A DNA stretch of 43,997 nucleotides from a virus. The position numbers and the translations under genes were made by a program. Under the pieces are notes generated by a model that saw nothing but the letters and a program-made list of their open reading frames with translations, was not told the origin of the DNA and ran no database searches. Positions within the stretch are counted from its first letter, which is position 1, and each line of letters starts with the position of its first letter. The stretch lies in the IMG/VR virus record IMGVR_UViG_3300025896_000045, positions 1 to 43,997 of that record; one strand, written 5' to 3'. Shown piece after piece: positions 15,929-43,827 of this stretch.

Positions 15929-15933
15929 GATAT

Positions 15934-16252: not shown

Positions 16253-16253
16253 T

Positions 16254-16330: not shown

Positions 16331-16335
16331 AACGA

Positions 16336-16388: not shown

Positions 16389-16419
16389 ACGTTCTGTTGT
16401 GTTGATTCAGTAAGAAACA

Positions 16420-16484: not shown

Positions 16485-16502
16485 GTTGTTTCAGTAGTTG
16501 AT

Positions 16503-16520
16503 GTTCTTTGACAATTTAAG
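16503..16520 (+). promoter_or_regulatory. rRNA-type boxA antitermination element, copy 2
   Basis: GTTCTTTGACAATTTAAG is a very good rrn boxA match without the insertion seen in copy 1. It starts about 12 bases after the predicted P2 start and ends 9 bases before tRNA-Glu. Confidence 0.8.
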
Positions 16521-16529
16521 CAATACAAT

Positions 16530-16604
16530 ACACCGTTAGACTTCTGGTGAGGTCACCACCCTTTCAAGGTGGCTAGATGGGATCGTAACCCATACGGTGT
16601 ACCA
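16530..16604 (+). tRNA. tRNA-Glu (UUC)
   Basis: Acceptor ACACCGT/ACGGTGT, anticodon stem CCACC/GGTGG with loop CTTTCAA, CCA. The T-loop is atypical (ATCGTAA instead of TTCRANN) but the T-stem ATGGG/CCCAT is intact. Confidence 0.88.
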
Positions 16605-16759
16605 TATTAAAACATATTAGTTGTCCTTTACAAGTAATTGTAATGAGAACTGCGGAATTCTGCACATACAGATTACCTAGAAAAGCGAGAAACAAATTGG
16701 AAACGATTTGCCAAGCGTAAGGCTGCGTCAGACTGGTTCATTAGTGTGTTTTAATATGG
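16602..16759 (+). ncRNA. Folded spacer element C (family 1)
   Basis: CCATATTAAAACATATTA (16602-16619) pairs with TAGTGTGTTTTAATATGG (16742-16759). The 122-base interior includes hairpins such as GCGGAATTCTGC. It runs directly into the next element. Confidence 0.7.
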
Positions 16760-16960
16760 TACCATTAATTGTGTTATTATGGAAAACTCCAGTGATCGCT
16801 GGACAGTGCTTCCCGAAATTTCTTGCTGATCGAATACTTCAAGAATATAGGAGGTGGTTGCCGAAAACCCTACGACGGTAGGACTAATAAGAACAACCCC
16901 ATTAAATGCAAACTCTAGGCGGTGAATCCTAGATATAACATGATAACACAATTAATGGTA
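16760..16960 (+). ncRNA. Folded spacer element with a perfect 18-bp closing stem
   Basis: TACCATTAATTGTGTTAT (16760-16777) and ATAACACAATTAATGGTA (16943-16960) are exact complements. Inside are TCCAG/CTGGA, CCTAC-GACG-GTAGG and TCTAGG/CCTAGA hairpins. No open frame with an SD was seen. The closing sequence differs from family 1. Confidence 0.75.
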
Positions 16961-16967
16961 TTACAAT

Positions 16968-17052
16968 GGAGATGCGGCTAAGTTGGAGAGTGGCGGCTGA
17001 CTGTAAATCAGTTCTTTCGGGTGAGTAAGTTCGAATCTTACCATCTCCACCA
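16968..17052 (+). tRNA. tRNA-Tyr (GUA)
   Basis: Acceptor GGAGATG/CATCTCC, anticodon stem GCTGA/TCAGT with loop CTGTAAA, long variable arm, T-arm GTAAG-TTCGAAT-CTTAC, CCA. Confidence 0.95.
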
Positions 17053-17082
17053 AGTTTTAATTTTTTTTATAAAGGAAATTGT

Positions 17083-17127
17083 ATGAAGCGAAAAACAAGT
17101 AAATCACGAAAACCCTCGGGGGTATAA
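17083..17127 (+). CDS. Possible 14-aa basic micro-peptide
   Basis: MKRKTSKSRKPSGV with a good SD (AAAGGA, 7 bases upstream). The frame ends inside tRNA-Lys. It may be a decayed gene start; low confidence. Confidence 0.2.
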   Translation: MKRKTSKSRKPSGV

Positions 17128-17192
17128 TTCAATGGTTAGAATATCCGGCTTTTAACCGGTCAATCAGAGTTCGAGTCTCTGTGCCCCCACCA
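17118..17192 (+). tRNA. tRNA-Lys (UUU)
   Basis: Acceptor GGGGGTA/TGCCCCC, anticodon stem TCCGG/CCGGT with loop CTTTTAA, T-loop TTCGAGT, CCA. Confidence 0.95.
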
Positions 17193-17261
17193 ATATTAAA
17201 GCACATTACGATGCCGTTCCGCGGCGGCGACCAAAAAGAGAGTAGTGTGCTTCAATATTGG
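17190..17261 (+). ncRNA. Folded spacer element D (family 1, shortest)
   Basis: CCAATATTAAAGCACATTA (17190-17208) pairs with TAGTGTGCTTCAATATTGG (17243-17261), joining the tRNA-Lys 3' end to the tRNA-Asp 5' end. The interior has GCCG-TTCCG-CGGC. G-C replaces the A-T of elements A-C in the stem (AAAGC/GCTT versus AAAAC/GTTT). Confidence 0.78.
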
Positions 17262-17334
17262 TCCGTTCATATAGTGGTTATTATATCCGCCTGTCTAGTG
17301 GAATATAGGAGTTCGATTCTCCTACGGATCGCCA
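17260..17334 (+). tRNA. tRNA-Asp (GUC)
   Basis: Acceptor GGTCCGT/ACGGATC, anticodon stem TCCGC/GTGGA with loop CTGTCTA, T-arm GGAG-TTCGATT-CTCC, G discriminator, CCA. Confidence 0.95.
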
Positions 17335-17539
17335 GAGCAAATGATGTCCGTGTGGTGTCTTTCGGGAATCACTAAGGTATCCAACGGTTGTAAGTGACGA
17401 TGGGTGTTATCGGAACTTTCAAGATTTGTTGCAACTAATCTCGGTGCTCCCGTTCTCCCGAGTTAAAATAACTGATTGTGGTTCTCCCCTTACGAGATAA
17501 AACATTCAGTAATGACGGGGCCAGAATTTAAAGTTTTAT
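17335..17539 (+). other. Gene-free folded spacer, 205 bases
   Basis: No coding frame with support. Hairpins include CGAT-GGGTGTT-ATCG, CTCGG/CCGAG and a long interrupted stem TTCT-CCCC-TTAC with GTAA-TGAC-GGGG-CC-AGAA. It has no closing stem like the other elements. Confidence 0.5.
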
Positions 17540-17619
17540 TGCGGGATAGAGGAGTTCGGTCGTCCTCGCTAGTCTCATAAGCTAGAAATCGTGTGGTTCG
17601 AATCCCACTCCCGCAACCA
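17540..17619 (+). tRNA. tRNA with CAU anticodon (Met; fMet-like ends)
   Basis: Acceptor TGCGGGA/TCCCGCA, D-stem GAGGA/TCCTC, anticodon stem CTAGT/GCTAG with loop CTCATAA, T-arm GTGGG/CCCAC-type, CCA. The CCCGCAACCA end and D-arm recall initiator tRNA, but the three G-C anticodon-stem pairs of initiators are absent. Confidence 0.9.
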
Positions 17620-17628
17620 AGTTTCAAT

Positions 17629-17707
17629 TCCGCAGAACCCGAGCAAGGTGCATGGGCGTGACTGTTAATCACTGGCTAGTAGAGTTCGATTCTCTAATGC
17701 GGAGCCA
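17629..17707 (+). tRNA. tRNA-Asn (GUU)
   Basis: Acceptor TCCGCA/TGCGGA, anticodon stem GTGA/TCAC with loop CTGTTAA, T-loop TTCGATT, G discriminator, CCA. It is separated from the previous tRNA by only AGTTTCAAT. Confidence 0.92.
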
Positions 17708-17710
17708 AGT

Positions 17711-17942
17711 TTTGTAGTTTGTGTTAGATGTTGGGAAAGCAAAGCCTCGAAAACTTTGTGAAAGAGATAATCAGCGCAAATCTGGCTAAACTAGTAATCT
17801 CTGTTACTGACTATTACTGATGTGTCCATACTGGCTGGCATGATCGAAAGATTATGTACAAGTACACCACACTGATCCGGACAGCCTGTGGGTGAACGAT
17901 GAAGATAATACGGACTTCATGCGAACTACAAATTCAATATCC
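17711..17942 (+). ncRNA. Folded spacer element G (family 2)
   Basis: TTTGTAGTTTG (17711-17721) pairs with CGAACTACAAA (17932-17942). The interior contains AGAGAT/ATCTCT, TGTCC/GGACA, GGCTG/CAGCC and TGTAC-AA-GTACA, a multi-branched RNA of about 230 bases. The closing sequences recur in the element at 19596. Confidence 0.65.
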
Positions 17943-17952
17943 CCCTTGCATA

Positions 17953-18026
17953 CGGGGTACAATGTGATAAATTGTGTGCAGTCTACAGACCCCGACTTCG
18001 TATCCTCGGTCGATAAACGAGGATAC
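17953..18026 (+). ncRNA. Two strong hairpins between spacer elements
   Basis: CGGGGT/ACCCCG (17953-17958, 17989-17994) encloses ACAAT-GTGATAA-ATTGT, which looks like an anticodon arm. Next comes a perfect 9-bp hairpin GTATCCTCG/CGAGGATAC (18000-18026). No T-arm, so not a tRNA. Confidence 0.55.
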
Positions 18027-18097
18027 ATATTAAAGCACATACTCGTCAATCTGGACCGCGGTGCCGAAAAGATTGGTGACAATGTGTGCTTTAATAT
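18027..18097 (+). ncRNA. Folded spacer element E (family 1)
   Basis: ATATTAAAGCACA (18027-18039) pairs perfectly with TGTGCTTTAATAT (18085-18097). The interior has GGACCGCGGTGCC. Confidence 0.75.
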
Positions 18098-18102
18098 AAT
18101 TT

Positions 18103-18176
18103 GGGCTGTTAGTATAATGGGATTACGGCAGCTTTGCAAGCTGTTTATGAGAGTTCGATTCTCTCACGGTCCACCA
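18103..18176 (+). tRNA. tRNA-Ala (UGC)
   Basis: Acceptor GGGCTGT/ACGGTCC, anticodon stem GCAGC/GCTGT with loop TTTGCAA, T-arm GAGAG-TTCGATT-CTCTC, CCA. Confidence 0.95.
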
Positions 18177-18183
18177 AGTTTTT

Positions 18184-18257
18184 GCCCCTTTAGTTAAATG
18201 GTATAACGGTTGATTTGTAATCATCTGTTGGCAGTTCGATTCTGTCAAGGGGCACCA
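18184..18257 (+). tRNA. tRNA-Thr (UGU)
   Basis: Acceptor GCCCCTT/AAGGGGC, anticodon loop TTTGTAA, T-loop TTCGATT, CCA. The anticodon stem GTTGA/TCATC has one T-T mismatch. Confidence 0.92.
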
Positions 18258-18469
18258 GTATCCCGACTTACACTTTTCCGTTAATAAAAGTGCGTTACTG
18301 CCGATACGAAAGAAGCACAGTTTTTATGATATTACTGCGAAGTCCCGCTATATGGGAGCCTTGAAGAATCATAGGTGTACTCAGATACCGCCAAAATAAC
18401 AATATCTGACGGACAGTGTAACCACTCAGTCTGTGGCTTATGGGAATAAGTAGCCAGACAAGATTTCTG
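18258..18469 (+). other. Gene-free folded spacer, 212 bases
   Basis: No supported gene. Structure includes GTATC/GATAC around CACTTTT-CCGTTAAT-AAAAGTG, TATGAT/ATCATA, AGATA/TATCT and GGCT-TAT-GGGA-ATA-AGT-AGCC. Confidence 0.5.
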
Positions 18470-18543
18470 CGGGATTAGTTTAGGGGCAAAACTAGAGATT
18501 TCCAATCTTTCGTCATCGGTTCGATTCCGATATCCCGCTCCAA
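18470..18543 (+). tRNA. tRNA-Gly (UCC)
   Basis: Acceptor GCGGGAT/ATCCCGC, anticodon loop TTTCCAA, T-arm TCGG-TTCGATT-CCGA, U discriminator, CCA. Confidence 0.94.
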
Positions 18544-18550
18544 GTTTATG

Positions 18551-18618
18551 CGGCAAGGTATTAACCACACAGTGGCACCCCCATTGTGACTTAGTGAGAA
18601 TCTAGGTTGCCGCTCCAG
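18551..18618 (+). ncRNA. 68-nt tRNA-like RNA with perfect acceptor stem
   Basis: GCGGCAA (18551-18557) pairs fully with TTGCCGC (18608-18614), followed by U-CCA as in phage tRNA-Gly. The middle arm is an 8-bp hairpin CACAGTGG/CCATTGTG with only CACCC in the loop. The T-arm is CTTAG-TGAGAAT-CTAGG, lacking TTC. Intact ends with an abnormal anticodon arm suggest a tRNA-shaped RNA or a decaying tRNA-Gly. Confidence 0.55.
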
Positions 18619-18626
18619 ATTCAATC

Positions 18627-18699
18627 TCGGTGTAGTTTAGTGGTAGAATTCGTGGTTTGGGACCATGAGATGGAAGTTCGATTCTTCCCATCGAGACCA
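18627..18699 (+). tRNA. tRNA-Pro (UGG)
   Basis: Acceptor CTCGGTG/CATCGAG, anticodon stem GTGG/CCAT with loop TTTGGGA, T-arm GGAAG-TTCGATT-CTTCC, CCA. Confidence 0.94.
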
Positions 18700-18701
18700 A
18701 T

Positions 18702-18776
18702 GGTAGTGTAGCATAACGGTAGTGCGCCACCTTCATACGGTGTAAAGTGTAAGTTCGATTCTTACCACTACTACCA
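18702..18776 (+). tRNA. tRNA with CAU anticodon (third copy)
   Basis: Acceptor GGTAGTG/CACTACT, anticodon stem CACC/GGTG with loop TTCATAC, T-arm GTAAG-TTCGATT-CTTAC, CCA. It could be elongator Met, initiator or Ile2; the fifth anticodon-stem pair is a C-T mismatch. Confidence 0.88.
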
Positions 18777-18785
18777 AGATTTAAT

Positions 18786-18861
18786 ACCACCTTCGTATAA
18801 TGGATGATTACCTAACGCTACGAACGTTATTACGGGAGTTCGATTCTCTCAGGTGGTACCA
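18786..18861 (+). tRNA. tRNA-Arg (ACG)
   Basis: Acceptor ACCACCT/AGGTGGT, anticodon stem TAACG/CGTTA with loop CTACGAA, T-loop TTCGATT, CCA. A34 would need host TadA to become inosine. Confidence 0.94.
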
Positions 18862-18868
18862 AGTTTTT

Positions 18869-18942
18869 GCTCCGATAGTTAAATGGTATAACTTTGGCTT
18901 GATAAGCCAACATCACAAGTTCAATTCTTGTTCGGAGTACCA
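18869..18942 (+). tRNA. tRNA-Ile (GAU)
   Basis: Acceptor GCTCCGA/TCGGAGT, anticodon stem TTGGC/GCCAA with loop TTGATAA, T-loop TTCAATT, CCA. Confidence 0.94.
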
Positions 18943-18950
18943 AGTTTTAT

Positions 18951-19024
18951 TACGGTGTAGTATAATGGCAGTGCTGCGGTCTCCAAAACCGCCAGTGGGG
19001 GTTCGATTCCCTCCACCGTAGCCA
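18951..19024 (+). tRNA. tRNA-Trp (CCA)
   Basis: Acceptor TACGGTG/CACCGTA, anticodon stem CGGT/ACCG with loop CTCCAAA, T-arm with TTCGATT, G discriminator, CCA. Confidence 0.94.
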
Positions 19025-19039
19025 ACAAAGGGAGTTATT

Positions 19040-19510
19040 ATGAAACGATTGGATTTAATGGAAGTAAAAGCGTTCATTGATGCACAGAGTCCAGAAACTA
19101 AAATTTATCTGGGTGCTGACTCAGAACGTTTTAGACTGAACGATGTGTGGTACGCTGATTACACATTAGCTGTAGTCGTTCATATTGACGGTAGACATGG
19201 TTGTAAAATCTTCGGTGAAGTTGTTCGTGAAAGAGATTATGACCAAAAGAAAAGCAAACCTTCAATGCGTTTGATGAATGAAGTATATAAAGTTTCAGAG
19301 TTGTTCCAAAAACTATCTGACGTATTGGAAGATCGTCATGTTGAAGTTCACTTGGATATTAACCCAAACGAAATGTACGGTTCTTCATGTGTAGTTAATC
19401 AAGCAATTGGTTATATCAAAGGAACTTGTAATGTTATTCCAATGGTTAAACCACAAGCGTTTGCAGCATCATATGCAGCTGATAGATTGAAACACGTTTT
19501 ATACGCATAA
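19040..19510 (+). CDS. YkuK-like RNase H-fold protein (DUF458)
   Basis: A 156-aa protein with the layout of the DUF458/YkuK family, predicted to have an RNase H-like fold. The first acidic strand is IYLGADSE, then RLMNEVYKVSELFQKL, HLDINPNEMYGSS, and a closing VKPQAFAASYAADRLKH. Acidic residues D27, E29 and D in HLDIN could form the metal site. Family members may act on RNA or DNA, but no activity is established to my knowledge. Placement inside a tRNA array makes a role in RNA processing or turnover worth testing. SD GGGAG precedes the ATG. Confidence 0.8.
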   Translation: MKRLDLMEVKAFIDAQSPETKIYLGADSERFRLNDVWYADYTLAVVVHIDGRHGCKIFGEVVRERDYDQKKSKPSMRLMNEVYKVSELFQKLSDVLEDRHVEVHLDINPNEMYGSSCVVNQAIGYIKGTCNVIPMVKPQAFAASYAADRLKHVLYA

Positions 19511-19517
19511 GTACAAT

Positions 19518-19594
19518 GGTGTTTGTAGTGTAAAGGTTTAGCACACTAGTCTGTGAAACTGGTAGAGTGGGATCGATCCCCATCAGACACCCCA
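19518..19594 (+). tRNA. tRNA-His (GUG)
   Basis: Acceptor GTGTTTG/CAGACAC with G-1 opposite C73 (the His identity element), anticodon stem CTAGT/ACTGG with loop CTGTGAA, T-stem GTGGG/CCCAT, CCA. Confidence 0.94.
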
Positions 19595-19595
19595 A

Positions 19596-19706
19596 ATTTT
19601 GTAGTCTATGTCTGGTACATAGGTAAACGGCGTTGCGGAATGGCGAAAGTCACGTTAAACATCGAAGCGCAAACTAATAGAGTTGTGTCTCTGCCTACTA
19701 CAAATT
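19596..19706 (+). ncRNA. Folded spacer element H (family 2)
   Basis: TTTGTAGT (19598-19605) pairs with ACTACAAA (19697-19704). Inside are CTATGT-CTGGT-ACATAG and TTGCG/CGCAA. It shares closing stem and the exit sequence CTACAAATTCAAT with the element at 17711, while interiors differ. Confidence 0.68.
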
Positions 19707-19710
19707 CAAT

Positions 19711-19784
19711 GCCTCGGTAGTTTAATGGTAGAACGCCATCCTTACACGGTGGATATGGGAGTTCAATTCTCCAACGAGGTACCA
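19711..19784 (+). tRNA. tRNA-Val (UAC)
   Basis: Acceptor GCCTCG/CGAGGT, anticodon stem CCATC/GGTGG with loop CTTACAC, T-arm GGAG-TTCAATT-CTCC, CCA. The seventh acceptor pair is G-A. Confidence 0.92.
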
Positions 19785-19786
19785 AT

Positions 19787-19862
19787 GCTGCTTTAGCTGA
19801 TGTGGTCATAGCAGGCGCCTGAAGAGCGTCGGAACGTGGTTCGATTCCACGAGGTAGCACCA
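19787..19862 (+). tRNA. tRNA-Phe (GAA)
   Basis: Acceptor GCTGCTT/AGGTAGC, anticodon stem GGCGC/GCGTC with loop CTGAAGA, T-arm CGTGG-TTCGATT-CCACG, CCA. Only 2 bases separate it from tRNA-Val. Confidence 0.94.
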
Positions 19863-19914
19863 AATTTTATGCATATATACTATTGCTCAATAAGAGTAAT
19901 TTAAGGGAGTTATC

Positions 19915-20211
19915 ATGCGATTTTTAAAAACGATGATGTTCCTATTATGCCTGACAAGCACAATAGTGTATGCAGATGCACCAACGCCGTATGAGTTACA
20001 AAAACCAGTAAAGTGTGCGAAAGCAAAAGACTTATTGGAATATTTTGAAAGTGAATATGGAGAGAAAATGACATGGGTTGGTAAAGAAGATTCTTCCGAT
20101 TCATTCATTGCAATTTTAATGAATAAAACAAATACAACTTGGACGATTGTTCAATACACTCCACAAGTTGCATGTGTATTAGGTTCTGGTAAACAAGCCA
20201 GTCCTATTTGA
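19915..20211 (+). CDS. Small exported protein
   Basis: A 98-aa protein with a clear Sec signal peptide: basic MRFLKT, hydrophobic MMFLLCLTSTIV, and cleavage after the AxA-like VYADA around residue 20-22. The mature part is about 77 residues with two cysteines (KCAKAKD and VACVLGS) that may form a disulfide in the periplasm. No family is recognised. SD AAGGGAG lies 7 bases upstream. It sits between tRNA-Phe and tRNA-Arg. Confidence 0.78.
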   Translation: MRFLKTMMFLLCLTSTIVYADAPTPYELQKPVKCAKAKDLLEYFESEYGEKMTWVGKEDSSDSFIAILMNKTNTTWTIVQYTPQVACVLGSGKQASPI

Positions 20212-20218
20212 TGAAAAT

Positions 20219-20293
20219 GCTTCGGTAGCATAATGGTTAATGCCGCTGCCTCTAAAACAGTTTATGTGGGTTCAATTCCCACCCGATGCACCA
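20219..20293 (+). tRNA. tRNA-Arg (UCU), imperfect copy
   Basis: Acceptor GCTTCGG/CCGATGC with one T-T mismatch, anticodon stem GCTGC/ACAGT weak (one C-A), loop CTCTAAA, T-arm GTGGG-TTCAATT-CCCAC, CCA. A cleaner UCU tRNA lies at 20898. Confidence 0.85.
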
Positions 20294-20310
20294 ATTATAA
20301 GGAGAAGTTT

Positions 20311-20331
20311 ATGAAAGAGTTTTTCGCATAG
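20311..20331 (+). CDS. Six-codon leader peptide MKEFFA
   Basis: ATG with a perfect SD AAGGAG 6 bases upstream, stopping at TAG 20 bases before an SD-hiding hairpin of the next gene. It could be a regulatory leader or the remnant of a gene. Confidence 0.35.
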   Translation: MKEFFA

Positions 20332-20350
20332 ATTACACACCCGCCATAAA

Positions 20351-20398
20351 TTCTTCTTGTTAACCTGAGTAATAAATTATTTTAAATAACAAGGAGAA
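20351..20398 (+). promoter_or_regulatory. Hairpin hiding the ribosome site of the gene at 20404
   Basis: TTCTTCTTGTTA (20351-20362) pairs with TAACAAGGAGAA (20387-20398): 12 bp with one T-G pair. The SD AAGGAG is wholly inside the 3' arm, so translation should be low unless the stem opens. Confidence 0.75.
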
Positions 20399-20403
20399 TT
20401 ACA

Positions 20404-20805
20404 ATGAGTATCGAATTAAAAATCAAATCAAAACATCTAAGTCTAGAAGCAAAAGTCATTCGTTTTGAAGAACAGAAATTACAGAAACAAATTCAGTGGC
20501 ACACCAGTAGAGAAAAGAAACAAGCATGGGAAATAAAAGATGCTTGGCCATTATGTTTAAAAATTGGTAGTCTCACATCACACAGAAAATATGATGTTCG
20601 TAATGAGAATAGATCGACATTTCTGGCCAGAGCATATCTTGCAGGACAATCTTATAACAAAGTAGAGAATAAGAGAAAACCAGAAAAAGAAGGCACGTTT
20701 GAGTTGGTCGTATTACCTAGGGTTTTAAAGATGGTTCAGAAATATGGTGGACGTAAAACCAGGGAATTAACGCTTGACAAACTCAAAGAATGGTGTTATA
20801 ATTAA
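20404..20805 (+). CDS. Basic protein of unknown function
   Basis: A 133-aa lysine/arginine-rich protein: SIELKIKSKHLSLEAKVIR, then HTSREKKQAW, a middle segment FLARAYLAGQSYNKVENKRK and a C-terminal LTLDKLKEWC. Charge and context (within tRNA genes) suggest nucleic-acid binding, but no family is recognised. Its ribosome site is sequestered in a 12-bp hairpin, and a consensus promoter for the following tRNAs lies in its last codons. Confidence 0.75.
   Translation: MSIELKIKSKHLSLEAKVIRFEEQKLQKQIQWHTSREKKQAWEIKDAWPLCLKIGSLTSHRKYDVRNENRSTFLARAYLAGQSYNKVENKRKPEKEGTFELVVLPRVLKMVQKYGGRKTRELTLDKLKEWCYN
20774..20802 (+). promoter_or_regulatory. Consensus sigma-70 promoter inside the end of a gene
   Basis: TTGACA (20774-20779), 17 bases, TATAAT (20797-20802) with TGT before the -10. 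The start near 20809 is 6 bases before tRNA-Leu(UAG). It should drive the last four tRNAs, the phosphoesterase and the GroES-like gene. Confidence 0.88.
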
Positions 20806-20814
20806 AGAATAAAT

Positions 20815-20891
20815 GCGGGAGTGGCGAAATTGGTAAACGCAGCGGTCTTAGAAGCCGTAAGCTGAGAGTTCGAGTCTCTCCTTCCGCACCA
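20815..20891 (+). tRNA. tRNA-Leu (UAG)
   Basis: Acceptor GCGGGAG/CTTCCGC, anticodon stem GCGGT/GCCGT with loop CTTAGAA, T-arm GAGAG-TTCGAGT-CTCTC, CCA. The variable arm is short for Leu. Confidence 0.93.
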
Positions 20892-20897
20892 AATACT

Positions 20898-20973
20898 CTG
20901 GCGTTCGTATATCGGATTAATACAGCGCTCTTCTAAAGCGCGAAGGGGGGTTCGATTCCCTCACGCCGGACCA
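20898..20973 (+). tRNA. tRNA-Arg (UCU)
   Basis: Acceptor CTGGCGT/ACGCCGG, anticodon stem GCGCT/AGCGC with loop CTTCTAA, T-loop TTCGATT, CCA. Confidence 0.93.
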
Positions 20974-20992
20974 ACTATATTATGGAGGCAAT

Positions 20993-21562
20993 ATGCCAGC
21001 AGTATTTCTTGTCAGTGACACACATTTTGGGCACGCTGGTGTTTGCCGATTTACGCATGAAGATTCCGGAGTAAAGATTCGACCATGGACTGATCCAGAT
21101 GAAATGGATGAAGAAATTGTCAAAAGATGGAATGATACAGTACGACCAAACGATAAAGTTTACCACCTTGGTGATGTTGTTATTAACCGTAAGGCACTTA
21201 ACATCATGTGGCGACTCAATGGTGACAAAGTTCTTATTCGTGGTAACCATGATATCTTCCGCGACGAAGAATATCGTCAACACTTTCGTGAGCTTCGTGC
21301 GTATCATATAATGAACGGAATGATTCTTTCACACATTCCTATTCATGAAGAAAGTATTGGTCGTTTTGGAACAAACATCCATGGACACCTTCATACAAGG
21401 CGTGTCATGAAAGATGGTAAAATTGATCCAAGGTACCATTGCGTTTGCGTTGAACAAACAGATTTTGCACCTATTCTTTTCGAAGATGTTGTTAAGAGAA
21501 TCCTAGCGGAAGGTGGTTCTGTTGGTTTCAAAGAAAGAACAGTCCGGTCCTCTGCTGATTAA
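20993..21562 (+). CDS. Calcineurin-like metallophosphoesterase
   Basis: A 189-aa single-domain phosphoesterase. Motifs: VSDTHFGHAG at 8-17, HLGDVV near 60, IRGNHD near 80, LSHIPIH near 118 and NIHGHLHT near 132, covering all metal ligands. The family hydrolyses phosphodiesters or phosphomonoesters; small phage forms may act on cyclic phosphates or nucleotides. The substrate is unknown. It has GGAG upstream and lies between tRNA genes, so RNA-end processing is possible but unproven. Confidence 0.9.
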   Translation: MPAVFLVSDTHFGHAGVCRFTHEDSGVKIRPWTDPDEMDEEIVKRWNDTVRPNDKVYHLGDVVINRKALNIMWRLNGDKVLIRGNHDIFRDEEYRQHFRELRAYHIMNGMILSHIPIHEESIGRFGTNIHGHLHTRRVMKDGKIDPRYHCVCVEQTDFAPILFEDVVKRILAEGGSVGFKERTVRSSAD

Positions 21563-21650
21563 ACAGTACGATATATCCAGAATTTACTGGTGAAATTATA
21601 CGACGGTATAATCTACGGACATCTCGGGTGTGAGAAACACCCACGAATTT
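21563..21650 (+). ncRNA. Three-hairpin leader upstream of tRNA-Leu(UAA)
   Basis: CCAG-AATTTA-CTGG, ATTATAC-GACG-GTATAAT and GGGTGT-GAGAA-ACACCC lie in an 88-base gap. All three are perfect stems. They are not followed by T runs, so not terminators. Confidence 0.55.
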
Positions 21651-21735
21651 GCGAGTGTGGTGAAATAGGTAGACACAACAGACTTAAAATCTGTCGCTTT
21701 CGGGCGTGCCGGTTCGATTCCGGCCATTCGCACCA
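21651..21735 (+). tRNA. tRNA-Leu (UAA)
   Basis: Acceptor GCGAGTG/CATTCGC, anticodon stem CAGA/TCTG with loop CTTAAAA, class II variable arm, T-arm GCCGG-TTCGATT-CCGGC, CCA. Confidence 0.95.
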
Positions 21736-21757
21736 GTTTAGCACTATATAAAGATAT

Positions 21758-21832
21758 GCGGGCATAATTCAGTGGTAGAATGCTTCCTTGCCAAGGAAAA
21801 TGTCGAGAGTTCGAATCTCTCTGCCCGCTCCA
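21758..21832 (+). tRNA. tRNA-Gly (GCC)
   Basis: Acceptor GCGGGCA/TGCCCGC, anticodon stem TTCC/GGAA with loop TTGCCAA, T-arm GAGAG-TTCGAAT-CTCTC, U discriminator, CCA. Confidence 0.95.
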
Positions 21833-35524: not shown

Positions 35525-36195
35525 AAATTGCGTTATGTTTTTCTGGTCAATCCAGATCATTTGAAAAAGGTTATGAGTATTACAAACGTAATCTATTAGA
35601 TCATTACGATGTGGATGTCTATATTCATTCCTGGAAGTTTCCAGAGAGTGAAAAGATGATTGAATTATACAGACCAATTGCCTGTCAGTTTGAAGAACCA
35701 TTTGTTAATGATTCTAATCAGAGATACACCAATACTCCAAACACATTCAAATATCCTCCACAATCAACATTCAATATGTTCTATTCGATGTTTGAATGTA
35801 GTATGCTGATTGGCCAACAGTATGATTGGGTCATTAGGTCACGACCTGATTATGCACTGAATGTGAAGATTCCGTTTGAAGAACTAGATAACACCAAATT
35901 ATACATTCCTAATTGCAGAATGGTACCAGAAAGAGATTTTGGTAATGACCAATTTGCATTTGGTGGTTGGGAAAATATGTTGTCATACATGTCAACATAT
36001 GCTCGTTTGGATCATTATTATAATCAAGGCGCACAATTCATTGGTGAAGATTTAATGCAAGCAAACTTACGTTATAATAATCTCTGTGGAGAAAATCTTG
36101 TTTATGTCAATATGAACAATCCATTTCCACCAGGTAAACACAATGGAACTTGGCATTCTCTGATTAGAGATGATTACGAACAATGGCCAAAGTAG
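35521..36195 (+). CDS. Glycosyltransferase-like protein (SG-R-F / RPD type), copy 2
   Basis: A 224-aa paralog of its upstream neighbour: KIALCFSGQSRSFEKGYEYYKRN, VDVYIHSWKFPES, WVIRSRPDYALN and FGNDQFAFGGWENM. It overlaps the upstream stop by 4 bases and the downstream kinase by 13. Function is inferred from fold and context. Confidence 0.76.
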   Translation: MKIALCFSGQSRSFEKGYEYYKRNLLDHYDVDVYIHSWKFPESEKMIELYRPIACQFEEPFVNDSNQRYTNTPNTFKYPPQSTFNMFYSMFECSMLIGQQYDWVIRSRPDYALNVKIPFEELDNTKLYIPNCRMVPERDFGNDQFAFGGWENMLSYMSTYARLDHYYNQGAQFIGEDLMQANLRYNNLCGENLVYVNMNNPFPPGKHNGTWHSLIRDDYEQWPK

Positions 36196-36926
36196 TAAAG
36201 GAATTTAAAGGACATTCTGGAAGTAAAGTATATCTCATGGAAGATATGGACATACTTTACGTTATGAAGATTGGTAATGTAGAAAGGAACATAGAGAGAT
36301 TAAAAGACCTTCATGATAAAGGTTATTCTGTTCCCAAATTGTATTGTTGTGATGAAGATTGTGTTTCTATGGAATACATCCATGGAATGGATATGAAGAA
36401 CTACCTAATCCATAATAATATAAACCAATTAAGCCAGTTTATAATTAAGACCTTAAGCAGTTTTGGTGTTTCTTCAACATCAAAATACTACACCGATATA
36501 TATGACAGCAAGATTTCATGGATTGATGGAACAGAAGGTTTTCCATTCAAAAAAGAAGAATTAATAGCAAGATTACCAGAATATCTACCCCAATCTACAT
36601 ATCATGGTGATATGACACTAGAAAACATCATGTCTGGTGATGACCAATTTTATATGATTGATGCTGTATCGATTGAATATGATTCATACATATTTGATAT
36701 AGCAAAGATGAGACAGGATTTGGAATGTAAGTGGTTTATCAGAAACGATGACGTTAAACTGGATGTTAAGTTAAAGAATCTCCAAGATAGAATACTAGAA
36801 CAGTTTCCATTAGCAAACAATGATTACCTTCTGATACTGATGTTATTGCGAGTCTATAAGCATACAGTAAAAGGTGATCCAGAGCATGAATTTATAATGA
36901 AAGAGATTAAAAGATTATGGAAATAA
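36183..36926 (+). CDS. Choline kinase / APH-like phosphotransferase
   Basis: A 247-aa kinase of the aminoglycoside/choline kinase fold. The catalytic loop is YHGDMTLENIMSG (HGD..x..N, about 140-152) and the metal-binding aspartate is in YMIDAVSIEYDS. The nucleotide-binding lysine is likely in YVMKIGN, and VSMEYIHG is the hinge. Its tight coupling to the downstream nucleotidyltransferase resembles LicA-LicC, where choline is phosphorylated and then activated with CTP. The actual substrate is unproven. Confidence 0.82.
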   Translation: MAKVVKEFKGHSGSKVYLMEDMDILYVMKIGNVERNIERLKDLHDKGYSVPKLYCCDEDCVSMEYIHGMDMKNYLIHNNINQLSQFIIKTLSSFGVSSTSKYYTDIYDSKISWIDGTEGFPFKKEELIARLPEYLPQSTYHGDMTLENIMSGDDQFYMIDAVSIEYDSYIFDIAKMRQDLECKWFIRNDDVKLDVKLKNLQDRILEQFPLANNDYLLILMLLRVYKHTVKGDPEHEFIMKEIKRLWK

Positions 36927-37945
36927 TTGTACCTGCAGCTGGATTGTCCACTAGATTTCCGGATATGAAACCAAAATATCTGCTGTATGATTACAAACAT
37001 GAATTGATGTTGGCGAATGCGATTAAACCATATCTGAGTAAAGGCATCAAGGTTAATATTGGCATTTTAAAAGAACATGATGTGAAGTATAATGCATCAG
37101 AATTTTTAAAATATGAATTTGGTGCGAGTATCAATGTTGTTGTCTTAGATGAACCCACCAAAGGTCCAGCTGATACTGTATACCAGATTCTGATGAAAAC
37201 GGGTTTACATACATCACCAATTCTAATTAAAGATTGTGATAGTTTCTTCAATCATGATATTGATACTGGAAACTATGTTTGTGTTTCGAAAATCTATCAA
37301 CACGAAGTATTGAAGAAGTTATCTTCTAAAAGCTTTGTGGTTTCGAACGAACAAGATATCATTACCAATATTGTTGAGAAACGAGTTGTTTCGGATACAT
37401 TCTGTGTTGGTGGTTACAAATTCTCTAGTGCAGCATTGTACAAAGAGACATATCAACAAATTTCACAACAGAATGAAATTTTTGTTTCTGATGTTATTGG
37501 TAGATGCATCAATTCGGGTTCAATCTTTACTGAAAAGGTTGTAACTGATTATGCCGATGTTGGTACTGCACAAGATTGGTTTGAGTACAACGACAAACCA
37601 GTAATCTTCTGTGATATTGATGGTACAATCATCGAGGCACAATCTCGTGTTGGTAAAAATGATTATTCGACACCACCAGTTGTGTTGACTAAAAATGTCG
37701 AACGACTTTTGGAGTTACATAAAAACGGTGCTCAAATTATCTTTACGACCGCACGACAATCATACCATATGAAAGTCACCAGGAAAATATTGGACGATCT
37801 AGGATTCATTAATTGTAGTCTGATAATGGACCTGAAGAATGCTCGTAGGATCGTAATTAATGACTTCAACAATGCGAATCCATTCCCAAGAGCAGAAGCA
37901 ATCAACATAGTTAGAAATTCGGATACATTATGCAATTACCTATAA
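36917..37945 (+). CDS. Nucleotidyltransferase fused to a HAD phosphatase
   Basis: A 342-aa two-domain protein. Residues 1-230 are a sugar/choline-phosphate nucleotidyltransferase: IIVPAAGLSTRFPDMKPKYL, the acidic site DCDSFF, and DYADVGTAQDW. Residues 230-342 are a HAD phosphatase: FCDIDGTIIEAQ (DxDGT), FTTARQSYH and ARRIVINDFNNANPFPRA. The fusion could activate a phosphorylated compound and remove or recycle a phosphate. It overlaps the kinase gene by 10 bases. Confidence 0.85.
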   Translation: MEIIVPAAGLSTRFPDMKPKYLLYDYKHELMLANAIKPYLSKGIKVNIGILKEHDVKYNASEFLKYEFGASINVVVLDEPTKGPADTVYQILMKTGLHTSPILIKDCDSFFNHDIDTGNYVCVSKIYQHEVLKKLSSKSFVVSNEQDIITNIVEKRVVSDTFCVGGYKFSSAALYKETYQQISQQNEIFVSDVIGRCINSGSIFTEKVVTDYADVGTAQDWFEYNDKPVIFCDIDGTIIEAQSRVGKNDYSTPPVVLTKNVERLLELHKNGAQIIFTTARQSYHMKVTRKILDDLGFINCSLIMDLKNARRIVINDFNNANPFPRAEAINIVRNSDTLCNYL

Positions 37946-38703: not shown

Positions 38704-38711
38704 TATAAATA
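38704..38711 (+). promoter_or_regulatory. T4-type late promoter TATAAATA
   Basis: Exact late -10 consensus, 48 bases before ATG 38759 of the virion-internal gene cluster. Confidence 0.85.
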
Positions 38712-38758: not shown

Positions 38759-39976
38759 ATGAAATCATTTATCTCCTTCTTAAAAGAAGAAACTGAAGAA
38801 TCTAGTCAGTTGAAGCACATTCATCATGCTGAAGATCGTCCACTGATGCATGGCCATGCGGGTTTTGAACACGCATTTGGTGCTTTACAACAGGCTCACG
38901 AACATATTAAATCTGGTCACCAGAGTAGTAACCTAACGATGAAATATGATGGTTCTCCATCAATTGTATTTGGTCACCACCCTAAAACTGGTAAATTCTT
39001 TGTTGCAACGAAGTCGGCATTCAACAAGAATCCAAAGATCAATCATACCGAAGCAGATATTGACAAGAACCATGGCCACGCGCCAGGCCTTGCACATACA
39101 CTAAAACATGCTCTGAAACATCTACCTAAAGTTACACCAAAAACTGGTGTTTACCAAGGTGACCTGATGCATCATGCAGATACCAAAACCTTACATGAAG
39201 GTTATATGGTTGAAGCAAAATCGAGTAGGGTTTCGTTTACTCCAAACACCATCACTTATACTGCACACGGTCCAGAAGCAGAAAAGATCAAGAAATCTAA
39301 AGTTGGTGTAGTTGTTCATCAACAATATCATGGTTCAGATATTGATAAGATGCACGCTTCTGCTCATCCTGATATGAGCAAATTTAAAGAACATCCAGAC
39401 GTTCACTTACATGGTGCAGAACACGATACCAGTAAAGTTAAACACAGTGAACACAATGAAAAGACATTCCAGAAGCATATGACTGCTGCAAAAGAAATTC
39501 ATGATACACATGGTCATAAAATGTATGATGCGGTTCATCCAAAACACTCAGGTGAAACTGGACATCTATCAACATACATCAACCATACTGTAAGACACGA
39601 TGAAGTTCCAAGCGTTGAGGGTTTCAAGAAACACCTGAAATCACAACATGATAAGATGGCGTCCAAAGTTAAAACAGAAAAAGCAAAAACAGAAAAGACC
39701 AAACAAGGTGAATCTGAACTTGCACACGTTGAAAAACACAAAGCACACTATGGTAATCTGTTTGCAATGCATCACCACCTGCACCAAGCAAAAAATGCAT
39801 TGGTCAATTCTTTAGAGACACATGAAGGTAGATATCAACACCACATTGAAGGTAAGAAATCTAAACCAGAAGGTTTTGTGGTTAATCACAAACCAGAAGG
39901 TGGAAAAGAAGAACCTACTAAGTTAGTCAATCGTGCAGAATTTGCGAAGCAGAATCTATTAAAAGTTAGAAAATGA
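38759..39976 (+). CDS. Ligase-like virion-internal protein (KxDG motif)
   Basis: A 405-aa, very histidine-rich protein. The first 12 residues (MKSFISFLKEET) resemble the capsid-targeting peptide of T4 internal proteins with an LxE cut site after FLKE. The core carries a nucleotidyltransferase-like signature, MKYDGSPSIVFG (K62-x-D64-G65), followed by FVATKS at 81-86, GVYQGDLMH at 130-138 and KVGVVVH at 181-187, matching in order motifs I, III, IV/V of DNA/RNA ligases. I recall the family as DUF6267. Ligase activity is inferred. ATG start follows AAAGG. It overlaps the next gene by 4 bases. Confidence 0.7.
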   Translation: MKSFISFLKEETEESSQLKHIHHAEDRPLMHGHAGFEHAFGALQQAHEHIKSGHQSSNLTMKYDGSPSIVFGHHPKTGKFFVATKSAFNKNPKINHTEADIDKNHGHAPGLAHTLKHALKHLPKVTPKTGVYQGDLMHHADTKTLHEGYMVEAKSSRVSFTPNTITYTAHGPEAEKIKKSKVGVVVHQQYHGSDIDKMHASAHPDMSKFKEHPDVHLHGAEHDTSKVKHSEHNEKTFQKHMTAAKEIHDTHGHKMYDAVHPKHSGETGHLSTYINHTVRHDEVPSVEGFKKHLKSQHDKMASKVKTEKAKTEKTKQGESELAHVEKHKAHYGNLFAMHHHLHQAKNALVNSLETHEGRYQHHIEGKKSKPEGFVVNHKPEGGKEEPTKLVNRAEFAKQNLLKVRK

Positions 39977-40599
39977 TATCCTTTAAGGACTTTTTAGTTG
40001 AAGAACAAAAACCAAAAACACTTCATGCATTTGACATGGATGAGGTGTTGTTTCACCACGACAATTCAAAAGTAAAAGTTCATGTAAAAGACAAAGAAGG
40101 CAATCACGTTAAATCATTAACGAATCAGGAATTCAATTCACACAAATTGGAACCAGGTCATAAGTATGATTTTAGTGAGTTTCGTTCGTCTAAGGTATTC
40201 AAAAAATCAGCACATCCAATTCACAAAATGATTAATAAATTAAAGGCGATACATAACAATAAGCAACACGTTAATATCGTAACTGCTCGTGGTGATATGG
40301 ATAATAAACAAGAGTTTTCAAAAACTTTAAAAAAACATGGTATAGATACACATAAAGTACATGTTCGCCGAGCAGGTAACTTGAATGCTCCTAGTCCAGG
40401 TGAAGCAAAACATGAAGTAATTAGTGACTTGATTAAAAAACATGGTTACAAAAAGGTTCATTTATATGACGATTCTGAGGATAACTTGCATCACTTCCTA
40501 AAATTAAAGCATGAACATCCAAATGTTGAATTGCATGCTCATCATATTGAACATAATCCAGATACTGGCCACGTTAAAACTACAACTACCGTCAAATGA
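39973..40599 (+). CDS. HAD-type phosphatase, virion-internal
   Basis: A 208-aa protein. The start MISFKDFLVEEQ has the same capsid-targeting form as its neighbours (LVE site). The HAD motif I is HAFDMDEVLF (D21, D23), motif II is NIVTARGD and motif IV is HLYDDSEDNLHHF. It is rich in His and Lys. HAD domains next to kinases and ligases often remove 3'-phosphates in nucleic-acid repair. The substrate is inferred only. Confidence 0.8.
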   Translation: MISFKDFLVEEQKPKTLHAFDMDEVLFHHDNSKVKVHVKDKEGNHVKSLTNQEFNSHKLEPGHKYDFSEFRSSKVFKKSAHPIHKMINKLKAIHNNKQHVNIVTARGDMDNKQEFSKTLKKHGIDTHKVHVRRAGNLNAPSPGEAKHEVISDLIKKHGYKKVHLYDDSEDNLHHFLKLKHEHPNVELHAHHIEHNPDTGHVKTTTTVK

Positions 40600-42404
40600 A
40601 ATCGTTTTTAGAATTAGTAGAAGAAACAAAACCACCAGAACATCATCATGTGATGACTTTTGGTCGAATGAATCCACCTACAACTGGACATCTTAAATTA
40701 ATTGACAAAGTAAAAGAGATTGCAAAGAAACACAATGCAACTCATACTGTTGTCACATCACATTCACAAGATGCAAAAAAAAATCCACTGTCAGCTGAAC
40801 AAAAAGTTAAACACCTAAAACGTTATTCACCAGGTACAAACTTCCAAGCATCTACCAAAGAACATCCAACATTTTTACATCATGCCGCAGAACTACACAA
40901 GAGTGGTGTGACTCACCTTCATATGGTAGTTGGTTCGGATCGTGTGAAAGAAATGAAAGAGAAGTTACACAAGTATAATGGACACCATGAAGGTGCATTA
41001 TACAACTTCAAGAAAATCACTGTACATTCTGCGGGTGAACGTGATCCTGATGCTGAAGGTACAGAAGGTATGTCTGGCACAAAGATGCGTGAACATGCTA
41101 AAAGCAAAGATGTTAAATCCTTTAAACAAGGTGTTCCATCACACGTTTCTGATACACATGCAAAAGAATTAATGCATGATACTCGTAAGGGTATGGGACT
41201 GCATGAATCTGTATATCATGGTATATTCAAAGCAATTTTTGTTACTGGTGGACCTGGTTCAGGTAAAGATGTTGTTATCCGTGAAGCAATTGCAGAACAA
41301 CGTGCTGTTGAATTGAATTCTGTACAAGCATTTGACTATTTGGCAGATAAACAGAAGTTATCCGAAAAGACTAGTGACTATCGTAGAGAAGCAATTCGTA
41401 ACCGCACACCATTAATCATCAATGGTCCTGCAAATGACAACGAACGCATCTTATACATTAAAGAAGAATTGGAAGAACTTGGTTATTCCACATTGATGGT
41501 TTTTGTGGACACCAATGAACAAGCAAGCAAAGAGAGAAATGAAAAACTGACTAAAATGGTTTCTGAGTCGGTTCGCCATGATAAATGGTTACAATCACAA
41601 AGAAACAAAACAACTTTCTCCAAGAAGTTTGAAGATTTCATCTATTTTGACAACAGTGCGTCGTTCGTCGATGACGAAATAATGACGGAAACATACCAGC
41701 AAGTTAATGCATTCATTGATGGAAAATCATATAATGATGTAGCATTCTCATGGTTGGAGAACCAAGGTAAACTGAATATCAACGGTTCAATTAAATCTCT
41801 CTATAAGGAAAATAAAAATGTTAACAAAGTTAGTAACCAAGATTCTAAGACTATTCACAAAACCAGAGGTGTTACCATCACCGCCGGTAGAGGTCCAAAA
41901 GCAGACGGTCCAGACGATTTCGCTCCAGACAATCAAGCAACCGACCCCAATGCCGGCAACATCAAGTGGGACGCAAACAAAAAAAGAGGCGGGTACACGT
42001 TCAAAACCTACACCGAAGCCAAAGGGTCAGCCAAAGAGCCCACCATCAAAGTCTACCCCGAGCCCAAAGAAACCAAGTTCAGCAAAGACAAAGAAAAAAT
42101 AAAGAATTCGAAATGGTTAAATAGTCCATCAGGTGCCATTAAAGCTCCAGGAATTGGACCAGAATATGACACCCGCACCCAAGGAACAGTATATCCTATG
42201 TCAGGTATGGGTGATGTGACGTACCGAGAAGAAACAAACTTCAAGTCTTTCAGAAGCAAAATCAAAGAAGCCATCGATGACCCAGGTGCAAACGACATGG
42301 GTGTTGGTGGTGTCTTAAATGGTGCTTCGAATAAAGAACCTTTAGTTACACCTCAAGATGTTAAAAATGGTGGTTTACTAATAAAGAAAAAAAAGAATCG
42401 TTAA
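40596..42404 (+). CDS. Nucleotidyltransferase-kinase fusion, virion-internal
   Basis: A 602-aa protein. The start MKSFLELVEETK repeats the capsid-targeting form. Residues 18-170 are a nucleotidyltransferase of the NMN-adenylyltransferase type: FGRMNPPTTGH at 22-32 and GMSGTKMR at 158-165. Residues 212-390 contain a P-loop kinase: TGGPGSGKD (Walker A at 218-225) and IINGPAND. NadR shows the same order of domains. The C-terminal 180 residues are disordered, Pro/Lys/Gly-rich, with FRSKIKEAI as another protease-like site. A block at 41880-42110 has GC-rich codons unlike the rest. Confidence 0.82.
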   Translation: MKSFLELVEETKPPEHHHVMTFGRMNPPTTGHLKLIDKVKEIAKKHNATHTVVTSHSQDAKKNPLSAEQKVKHLKRYSPGTNFQASTKEHPTFLHHAAELHKSGVTHLHMVVGSDRVKEMKEKLHKYNGHHEGALYNFKKITVHSAGERDPDAEGTEGMSGTKMREHAKSKDVKSFKQGVPSHVSDTHAKELMHDTRKGMGLHESVYHGIFKAIFVTGGPGSGKDVVIREAIAEQRAVELNSVQAFDYLADKQKLSEKTSDYRREAIRNRTPLIINGPANDNERILYIKEELEELGYSTLMVFVDTNEQASKERNEKLTKMVSESVRHDKWLQSQRNKTTFSKKFEDFIYFDNSASFVDDEIMTETYQQVNAFIDGKSYNDVAFSWLENQGKLNINGSIKSLYKENKNVNKVSNQDSKTIHKTRGVTITAGRGPKADGPDDFAPDNQATDPNAGNIKWDANKKRGGYTFKTYTEAKGSAKEPTIKVYPEPKETKFSKDKEKIKNSKWLNSPSGAIKAPGIGPEYDTRTQGTVYPMSGMGDVTYREETNFKSFRSKIKEAIDDPGANDMGVGGVLNGASNKEPLVTPQDVKNGGLLIKKKKNR

Positions 42405-42417: not shown

Positions 42418-43827
42418 ATGATTAATAAAAAAGTGGCAGCTGTCGCTGATGCTGTTAGAGATATTTTACAACAAGAAGCAAAAGAGTTGTCGGCCAAGCA
42501 GAAGAAGATTGCTGCTGTTGCTGGTGATCCAAAGAAGATTGATGCAGAAGATTTTAAAAAACTTCGTGGTGAAGAGCACGAAATTACTATGACAGATGAG
42601 GAAACTGATTTGGAGAAAACTCGCAGAATCAGTAGAGAACAGATGCAGAAGTCTCATGCAGATTTTAAATCAGCTGGCGAAAAGTCTCGTGCAGATTATC
42701 AAGCAAATAAAAATAAACCACAAAGAGCTGATATATTTGGCCACGATGTAAAACGTCAATCCGCTGGTTATTCGGGATCGGGCGCAAGTGTAATGCAACA
42801 TGCTGCGAATGCTGTTGGTAAAGTGGGTTCATCCATCAAAAAAATGTTTAAAAAAGAAGATATGGACGATTCGAACACATCTTCAAACTATTTTGCTAAA
42901 ATCATGGAAAAAGTTGCTGAGCGTGAATTGGATGAAGCATTCCCTACTGTTTCCGATGTTCGTAAAAAAGCAAATACACCACAACCAAGTGGCGCTGCAG
43001 GTATCAAACAAGGTACCCGTTACGGTGGTGGTCGCCAAGCACCTGATGTAGAACCAGAAGAAGATGACGAAAAGAAACCATTTACTCGTATGAGTGGTGC
43101 TCACAAAAATCGTAGAGTTGATACCAAAGATTATAAAAAAGAAGAAGTTGAACCTCCATTTGATGCTCCTTATAAAAAGACTCAAGGTAATGTGAAAGAT
43201 AAGTCCGGTGCAGTTCATACACCTGCTTCTCGTGCAAAAGATTCTGCACAAAAAGGCATGAAAACTTTTGCTCAAAAGAGAAAAGAATTGGAAGAAGCTT
43301 TATCAAAAAAAGCACCGCCAGCAGATTGGATTCATGATTTTGTCCATAGTGACAATCCACAGTTTGCTGGCAAATCAACAAAACAACGCCAGCAAATGGC
43401 TCTAGCAGCTTACTATGCAAAGCAACGCAATGAAGAAGTTGAAGAACTAGATGAAATTTCTGCTAATTTGGCATTAAATGTATCGCAAGCTCGTCGTAGT
43501 CAAGCAGAAAAAAATAAATCACCAGAAACATTGGCGAAAATGAAATCTGCAACAAGTTCATACACTAAGCGTTCCAGTGCTGAACGTGCAAAGGCTAGTC
43601 AATCAGATATCAATAAAGGTTTTGCTAGTGATGCAGCTGCAAATCGTAAAAAAGGTTTGAGTAACGAAGAATATGAACTTGATGAGGGTCGTGGACCAAC
43701 AAGTCAAATCGATCAACCATTTATTACTGATGATTCCAAACCATTGCAAAATGCAAAAGATTTGGCCAAGTCAACAATGAAGCGTATTAAGTCTGAAATG
43801 ATGGGTAAAACCGGAACTTCTGAATAA
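42418..43827 (+). CDS. Virion-internal or scaffold-like protein with repeated protease sites
   Basis: A 469-aa charged, largely disordered protein (Lys, Ala, Glu rich). It contains repeated ELDE/ELEE sequences (RELDEAF, ELEEAL, ELDEIS, ELDEGR), each fitting the LxE recognition of T4-like prohead protease gp21. One folded segment, WIHDFVHSDNPQFAGKSTKQ then RQQMALAAYYAKQ, is shared by many T4-like phage proteins. The protein is probably cut during head maturation into peptides. SD ACGGAG precedes the ATG. Confidence 0.72.
   Translation: MINKKVAAVADAVRDILQQEAKELSAKQKKIAAVAGDPKKIDAEDFKKLRGEEHEITMTDEETDLEKTRRISREQMQKSHADFKSAGEKSRADYQANKNKPQRADIFGHDVKRQSAGYSGSGASVMQHAANAVGKVGSSIKKMFKKEDMDDSNTSSNYFAKIMEKVAERELDEAFPTVSDVRKKANTPQPSGAAGIKQGTRYGGGRQAPDVEPEEDDEKKPFTRMSGAHKNRRVDTKDYKKEEVEPPFDAPYKKTQGNVKDKSGAVHTPASRAKDSAQKGMKTFAQKRKELEEALSKKAPPADWIHDFVHSDNPQFAGKSTKQRQQMALAAYYAKQRNEEVEELDEISANLALNVSQARRSQAEKNKSPETLAKMKSATSSYTKRSSAERAKASQSDINKGFASDAAANRKKGLSNEEYELDEGRGPTSQIDQPFITDDSKPLQNAKDLAKSTMKRIKSEMMGKTGTSE

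Follow-up and report, generated by a model that had tools for sequence, protein, structure and literature searches.

Two features of T4-like phage heads are already known: T4 directs proteins into its capsid by short targeting peptides, and cytidylyltransferases are packed in virions. In the T4 internal protein IPIII, residues 4 and 7 of the peptide serve targeting and residues 8 and 10 serve processing (PMC9026906). We found no paper in the searched literature that links capsid targeting with the virion cytidylyltransferases. Here we analyze a viral fragment of 43,997 bases, IMG/VR virus record IMGVR_UViG_3300025896_000045 (the window, meaning this whole stretch), and three neighbouring genes within it whose products, P1, P2 and P3, each begin with a peptide of the T4 kind. 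We consider it very probable that the three proteins are packaged in the phage head, and we lean towards a reading in which they form a late-expressed cargo operon of enzymes that would act on nucleic-acid ends or on a nucleotide derived from them. The new points are the tag on a multi-enzyme operon, a ligase-type reading of the protein family DUF6267, and a clade-specific loss of kinase active-site residues.

Capsid-targeting peptides and probable head packaging

The open reading frames (ORFs) of P1, P2 and P3 are confirmed as first described, and each overlaps the next at an ATGA. The operon is laid out as follows.

38704–38711, plus strand: TATAAATA, the T4 late promoter element; it starts 55 nucleotides 5' of the P1 ATG
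38759–39976, plus strand: P1, DUF6267 protein, predicted ligase-type covalent nucleotidyltransferase, 405 amino acids (PF19782 and ordered motifs)
38759–38788, plus strand: P1 capsid-targeting peptide MKSFISFLKE (low-entropy positions 4, 7, 8 and 10)
39973–40599, plus strand: P2, predicted HAD phosphatase of the T4 Pnkp-phosphatase kind, 208 amino acids (HAD motifs and phrog_415)
39973–40002, plus strand: P2 capsid-targeting peptide MISFKDFLVE (strict motif)
40596–42404, plus strand: P3, nucleotidyltransferase, degenerate kinase and disordered tail, 602 amino acids
40596–40625, plus strand: P3 capsid-targeting peptide MKSFLELVEE (strict motif)

The sequence-only reading had likened these N-termini to the T4 capsid-targeting sequence with its LxE cut, a proposal that our analysis upholds. 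The full N-termini are MKSFISFLKEE, MISFKDFLVEE and MKSFLELVEET, with LxE sites at L8-K-E10 in P1, at L8-V-E10 in P2, and at L7-V-E9 or V8-E-E10 in P3, whose tag deviates from the IPIII-type residues by having L7/V8 in place of F7/I8. A strict motif derived from the IPIII mutational data, M..[FY]..[FYL][LIV].E (PMC9026906), occurs at 3 of the 63 ORF starts of the window; residue-shuffled sequences average 0.023 occurrences, and none of the 293 internal methionines starts one. Applied to part of the T4 genome (137 ORFs), it finds IPII and IPIII only; IPI, which has a longer tag, is missed. Across 214 loci the motif begins 212/2257 unique ORF starts versus 12/12161 internal methionines, a rate that differs from a genome-wide one because the loci were picked for this cluster. 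Genome-wide spread of the tag was rejected: in four large relatives of 105–176 kb the motif occurs 2, 3, 4 and 2 times, always within the cluster or a few kb away.

Conservation at the N-termini follows the functional positions of IPIII. Entropy is lowest at positions 4, 7, 8 and 10 in P1. In P2 the minima are positions 4 and 10, and P3 has the same two among its least variable N-terminal positions. The strict tag is carried by 83/116 unique N-termini of P1, 13/33 of P2 and 17/42 of P3 in its main architecture, and the relatives that fail it are mostly near misses such as MKSFLDILKEE and MIHFKHLREE. Near the cluster (L016–L213 and phage loci), 76 more ORFs of other families begin with the strict tag, including ...AWQRSAGKDPEGGLNRKG, ...CWTGYKRVPGTKP, ...EEHTSEWMSSSDL, a P-loop protein in locus L093 and a DMDE-type HAD in L077; by their N-termini these 76 make up a list of candidate head cargo.

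Late expression of the P1-P2-P3 operon is predicted from the promoter element. TATAAATA lies within 150 nucleotides upstream of P1 in 81/135 unique relatives, against a background of 0.015 per 150 nucleotides; the upstream regions are akin, so this count overstates independence, which leaves the contrast with P3 unaffected. The distance is nearly fixed: of the 60 nearest cases, 55 begin 45–54 nucleotides before the P1 ATG. It precedes P3 in 0/71 and P2 in 2/39, as fits an operon led by P1. Within the window the element also precedes the endonuclease VII gene; it is not enriched over the window as a whole (4 found, 3.8 expected). A gp21-type prohead protease (PF03420) is encoded by all five searched relatives longer than 120 kb (G001, G002, G003, G004 and G009), where the gene sits in T4-like head gene order, and was not found in G008, a 105-kb fragment. 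The major capsid proteins of four relatives have LNE or LTE in their N-termini, ahead of what is presumably their mature part.

Relatives of the P3 transferase have been detected by mass spectrometry in purified virions of four cyanophages: T4-GC190 in S-SM1 (PMC3037559), S-SZBM1_140 with 2 peptides (PMC9146016), S-CREM2 ORF154 with 3 peptides (PMC10665884) and S-SCSM1 ORF91 (PMC9602691). According to their records these proteins begin MKKFSAFLNEA, MRFRQFIIEA, MKNFSSFLTEA and MKSFLQFLKEA, respectively; the strict motif fits three of them, and the remaining one is a variant shorter by one residue. The DUF6267 proteins of S-SM1 and S-SZBM1 carry no tag. Three points weigh against packaging. The untagged DUF6267 protein S-SZBM1_141 is missing from the mass-spectrometry table and text of the S-SZBM1 paper; authors caution that transferases in virion preparations may be carry-over (PMC10665884, PMC9602691); and the mass-spectrometry evidence comes entirely from other phages and from relatives of the P3 transferase. 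That tagged transferases are in virions and the untagged S-SZBM1 protein is unlisted also fits tag-dependent packaging, in few cases. SSCSM1_90, the virion protein adjoining the S-SCSM1 transferase, was rejected as evidence on P1, as it is not a DUF6267 protein. Taken together, motif specificity, conservation at positions 4, 7, 8 and 10, the late promoter, gp21 in relatives and the mass spectrometry of tagged transferase relatives make capsid targeting well supported, and we infer from them that P1, P2 and P3 are packaged and cleaved.

Predicted activities of P1, P2 and P3

The features that bear on enzymatic function are these.

38942–38953, plus strand: P1 motif I, K62-Y-D64-G65, with K62 the candidate adenylated lysine (49 sequences all keep K62, D64 and G65)
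40638–41213, plus strand: P3 NMNAT/NadD-like nucleotidyltransferase domain, PPTTGH and SGTKMR (CTP_transf_like 1.6e-7; phrog_3041 3e-66; Foldseek NadD 9e-5)
41214–41780, plus strand: P3 Pnk-like P-loop kinase domain that has lost catalytic residues (GKD in Walker A; D35 and R126 missing)
41781–42401, plus strand: P3 tail, predicted disordered (predicted local distance difference test, pLDDT, under 50 from residue 397 onward except in one short stretch)

P1 matches PF19782 (DUF6267) over its full length (E 4e-98; 329.6 bits against a gathering score of 27), and its AF2 model has a pLDDT of 90. No function is on record for PF19782, and no paper naming DUF6267 was found in the searched literature. 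In 49 relatives, K62, D64, G65, P67, K85, Q133, D135, N163, E371, G372, V374, K388 and R392 are invariant, and these residues match the covalent nucleotidyltransferase motifs I, Ia, III, IIIa, IV and V in order and in strand position, with a mostly helical insert of ~190 residues between motifs IIIa and IV. A pattern of the ordered motifs I-Ia-III-IV-V, composed after the alignment had been seen, is present in 130/131 P1 relatives versus 0/494 background ORFs; among controls it recovers 29/29 relatives of T4 Rnl2, the single T4 DNA ligase (1/1) and 4/34 relatives of Rnl1. Given this motif order, DUF6267 is likely to be a ligase-type nucleotidyltransferase, an assignment that is new as far as the searched literature shows.

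Several comparisons speak against it. Foldseek against the PDB gives the P1 model no significant match, although its ranking favours the ligase reading: RNA editing ligase 1 takes rank 1 at E 0.65, and Rnl of the Pnkp1/Rnl/Hen1 complex takes ranks 4 and 10. Neither the sequence profile of P1 nor that of its N-terminal core finds a ligase in the PDB, and hhalign of P1 with T4 Rnl1, Rnl2 and DNA ligase is not significant (P 0.055–0.34); the alignments with Rnl1 and Rnl2 landed on motif IV. In a viral structure library, once members of the family and their fusions with the transferase are passed, Ligase 2 of Edafosvirus and an RNA ligase of a mimivirus are among the first matches, again not significant, and a Pfam scan of the 49 relatives gives a single weak RNA-ligase match (0.017). 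The KxDG ligase-like domain proposed from sequence thus keeps its ordered invariant motifs and lacks significant support from fold or profile comparisons. For a cellular origin of DUF6267 no support was found: the genome contigs that match it belong for the most part to metagenome bins, and the matching stretches are probably of phage origin.

That P2 is a HAD phosphatase, as had been proposed, is supported, and its PHROG points to the T4 Pnkp kind. All four HAD motifs are kept, with D21/D23, T104, K146 and D166/D167 invariant in relatives. P2 matches phrog_415 (E 6e-11), as do 18/18 of its relatives, and the same PHROG matches the phosphatase domain of T4 PseT (3e-24). Its sequence profile finds nothing useful in the PDB. 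In locus L048 (4991–5977), an ORF that begins with the tag contains the zinc-protease-like motif HELVHH in the region ahead of a fused P2-type HAD.

For P3, which had been read as a nucleotidyltransferase plus P-loop kinase, the two halves fared differently. The motifs PPTTGH, SGTKMR and GGPGSGK are present, invariant or near-invariant in relatives. Pfam and PHROGs give a cytidylyltransferase-like domain and weak P-loop matches; fold matches of the model include ATP sulfurylase, adenylate kinase, polynucleotide kinase and NadD, and the only useful match of its sequence profile to the PDB is a Walker-A match to adenylate kinases. The transferase, with NMNAT-type motifs intact, is NMNAT/NadD-like. 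The kinase half has its P-loop and groups with stand-alone kinases of pelagic phages and with T4 PseT, sharing a PHROG with the PseT kinase half, but the remaining Pnk catalytic residues are missing. Within its clade the Walker-A Ser/Thr is replaced by Asp (GKD) in 44/45, T4 R126 is replaced by Leu in 43/45 and kept in 2/45, and the column of T4 D35 is mostly Val or Ile, whereas 7/7 stand-alone kinases keep all three. Because these residues are lost in 43–45 of 45 clade members, a working 5'-kinase in P3 appears unlikely; the degenerate domain is perhaps a binding module. Stand-alone Pnk/Zeta-toxin-like kinases whose catalytic residues are intact adjoin DUF6267 and the transferase in pelagic phages (L001 at 5986–6648, HTVC008M gp129; L070, L076, L079, L087, L092 and L093). 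Two candidates were set aside: Namat/NARP1, Namat being a Nampt-type enzyme, and T4 nrdC.11, which is RlaP, another nucleotidyltransferase. Histidine and lysine seem, by eye, unusually abundant in P1, P2 and the folded part of P3 (38759–42404).

Proposed function and rival explanations

Among 50,697 phage records, 464 contain DUF6267 and 531 the transferase; most of these come from cyanophages. The two genes are neighbours or near-neighbours in the records examined. P1 and the transferase are fused in six loci, and in L074 one ORF joins transferase, HAD and DUF6267. Given this adjacency and these fusions, DUF6267 and the transferase most likely serve one process.

We propose that a T4-like (Kyanoviridae-type) aquatic phage expresses P1-P2-P3 late as a cargo operon, and that the 10-residue N-terminal peptides bind the three proteins into the prohead core. 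A gp21-type prohead protease would cut after the glutamate of (L/V)xE, and the mature enzymes would stay in the head among the DNA and enter the host together with the genome; the late promoter and the tags suggest such delivery at infection. The mature set would comprise a ligase-type DUF6267 protein, a Pnkp-type HAD phosphatase and an NMNAT-like transferase with a non-catalytic kinase. At the very start of infection its most likely task would be to repair or alter the ends of nucleic acids, or else a small nucleotide that comes from such ends, and so to counter host nucleases.

Nucleic-acid ends themselves are a tentative choice of substrate. The sequence-only reading had seen in the three proteins the activities needed to heal and seal broken nucleic acid, and the ligase motifs, the Pnkp-type phosphatase and the intact Pnk-type kinase of pelagic relatives agree with it. 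Two points tell against it and lower our estimate: the kinase half is degenerate by its residues in the window's clade, leaving the 'heal' half incomplete, and the best-conserved partner, the NMNAT-like transferase, has no evident role in the repair of ends. In its broad form the idea is that marine and freshwater phages of the T4 kind use T4-type address tags to load their heads with enzymes that mend nucleic acid, a new ligase family (DUF6267) among them, so that repair or anti-nuclease activity arrives with the genome ahead of any gene expression; we estimate this to be unlikely.

The main rival, which we hold to be rather unlikely, is the rebuilding of nicotinamide adenine dinucleotide (NAD): a virion-delivered NMNAT-like enzyme would restore NAD once a defence of the host has depleted it, and related nucleotides would be the substrates of the phosphatase and DUF6267. 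In favour of this, the transferase carries NMNAT motifs, NadD is its best single-domain fold match besides kinases, cyanophage authors name the virion relatives NMNAT (PMC9602691), and fusions of a HIGH-transferase with a P-loop kinase for NAD salvage occur in jumbo phages (PMC7824862). The NadR-like alternative raised earlier agrees with the NMNAT/NadD-like transferase, but the NadR model TIGR01526 scores 16.3 bits on P3 against a cut-off of 341 and ribosylnicotinamide kinase is absent among the listed fold matches. The kinase is instead Pnk/adenylate-kinase-like with its catalytic residues gone, no nicotinamide phosphoribosyltransferase was seen adjoining, and the ligase-type DUF6267 and the Pnkp-type phosphatase are left unexplained.

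It is improbable that transferase, HAD phosphatase and kinase-like module form a pathway for nucleotide sugars or small metabolites, comparable to the synthesis of ADP-heptose or CDP-alcohols, and that packaging is only a side effect of the tag. Pfam and annotators name the transferase a cytidylyltransferase, phrog_1238 ('phosphoheptose isomerase') is a weaker match for P2, and the genes just upstream, at 34–38 kb, resemble glycan or phospho-alcohol modification genes; the late promoter element directly 5' of P1 nevertheless sets the cluster apart from them, DUF6267-transferase fusions recur in several lineages, and this explanation gives the tags no reason. Least probable of all is that P1–P3 are structural or DNA-condensing ex-enzymes kept as internal scaffold or DNA-binding filler, as the degenerate kinase and long disordered tail of P3 and the non-enzymes among T4 internal proteins might suggest, because filler would not need the catalytic motifs of P1, P2 and the transferase, every one of which is kept across very divergent relatives.

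Neighbouring genes and known systems

The window also carries T4-type replication genes (SbcC-like gp46, endonuclease VII, clamp loader, DNA polymerase, UvsX and a DnaB-type helicase) and 26 tRNA genes at 15367–21832. One of these, at 20219–20293, has a CTA anticodon, is called 'Pyl' by ARAGORN and is a possible amber suppressor. Upstream of the operon, an APH/RIO-like kinase gene (36183–36926) precedes a gene that joins a nucleotidyl transferase to a HAD domain (36917–37945); both adjoin glycosyltransferase- and methyltransferase-like genes, and the group resembles a surface or phospho-alcohol modification set. After P3, an ORF of 469 amino acids (42418–43827) has no convincing family match in Pfam or PHROGs and contains several internal LxE-like sites (ELDEA, ELDEI, ELDEG), a feature that would suit a core or cargo protein processed by gp21.

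Compared with NadR, which joins NMNAT and ribosylnicotinamide kinase, P3 has the same order of a HIGH-type transferase and then a P-loop kinase domain, but its kinase is Pnk/adenylate-kinase-like and degenerate and the NadR model stays far under its cut-off. The tRNA repair system of T4, Pnkp (PseT) with Rnl1/Rnl2, shares its phosphatase and kinase PHROGs with the operon and its ligase motif order with DUF6267, for which our reading is a first functional hypothesis. Unlike in T4, phosphatase and kinase lie on separate proteins, the clade's kinase is without catalytic residues, and the set adds an NMNAT-like transferase and capsid tags.

The cyanophage virion transferases (T4-GC190; S-SM1_190, S-SZBM1_140, S-CREM2_154 and S-SCSM1_91) have a homologous domain and the same kind of tag, and in S-SM1 and S-SZBM1 the DUF6267 gene adjoins the transferase. 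The window version differs in its fused degenerate kinase and disordered tail, and in that its DUF6267 and HAD neighbours are tagged whereas the DUF6267 proteins of S-SM1 and S-SZBM1 are not. A capsid-targeting peptide would be a simple reason why 'metabolic' nucleotidyltransferases recur in cyanophage virion proteomes, and the strict motif offers a sequence test for listing head cargo in T4-like phages.

Also among the closest known systems are IPI, IPII and IPIII of T4, which likewise have a 10-residue N-terminal tag (aromatic residue 4, F 7, hydrophobic residue 8, E 10) and a late promoter element, with a gp21-type protease encoded by relatives of the window phage. The T4 proteins, one of which (IPI) inhibits a nuclease, are small, whereas the cargo predicted here is three enzymes in one operon. 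The T4 cargo idea, which covered a few small proteins, would thereby take in an enzyme cassette, and the components of that cassette occur in hundreds of abundant aquatic phages.

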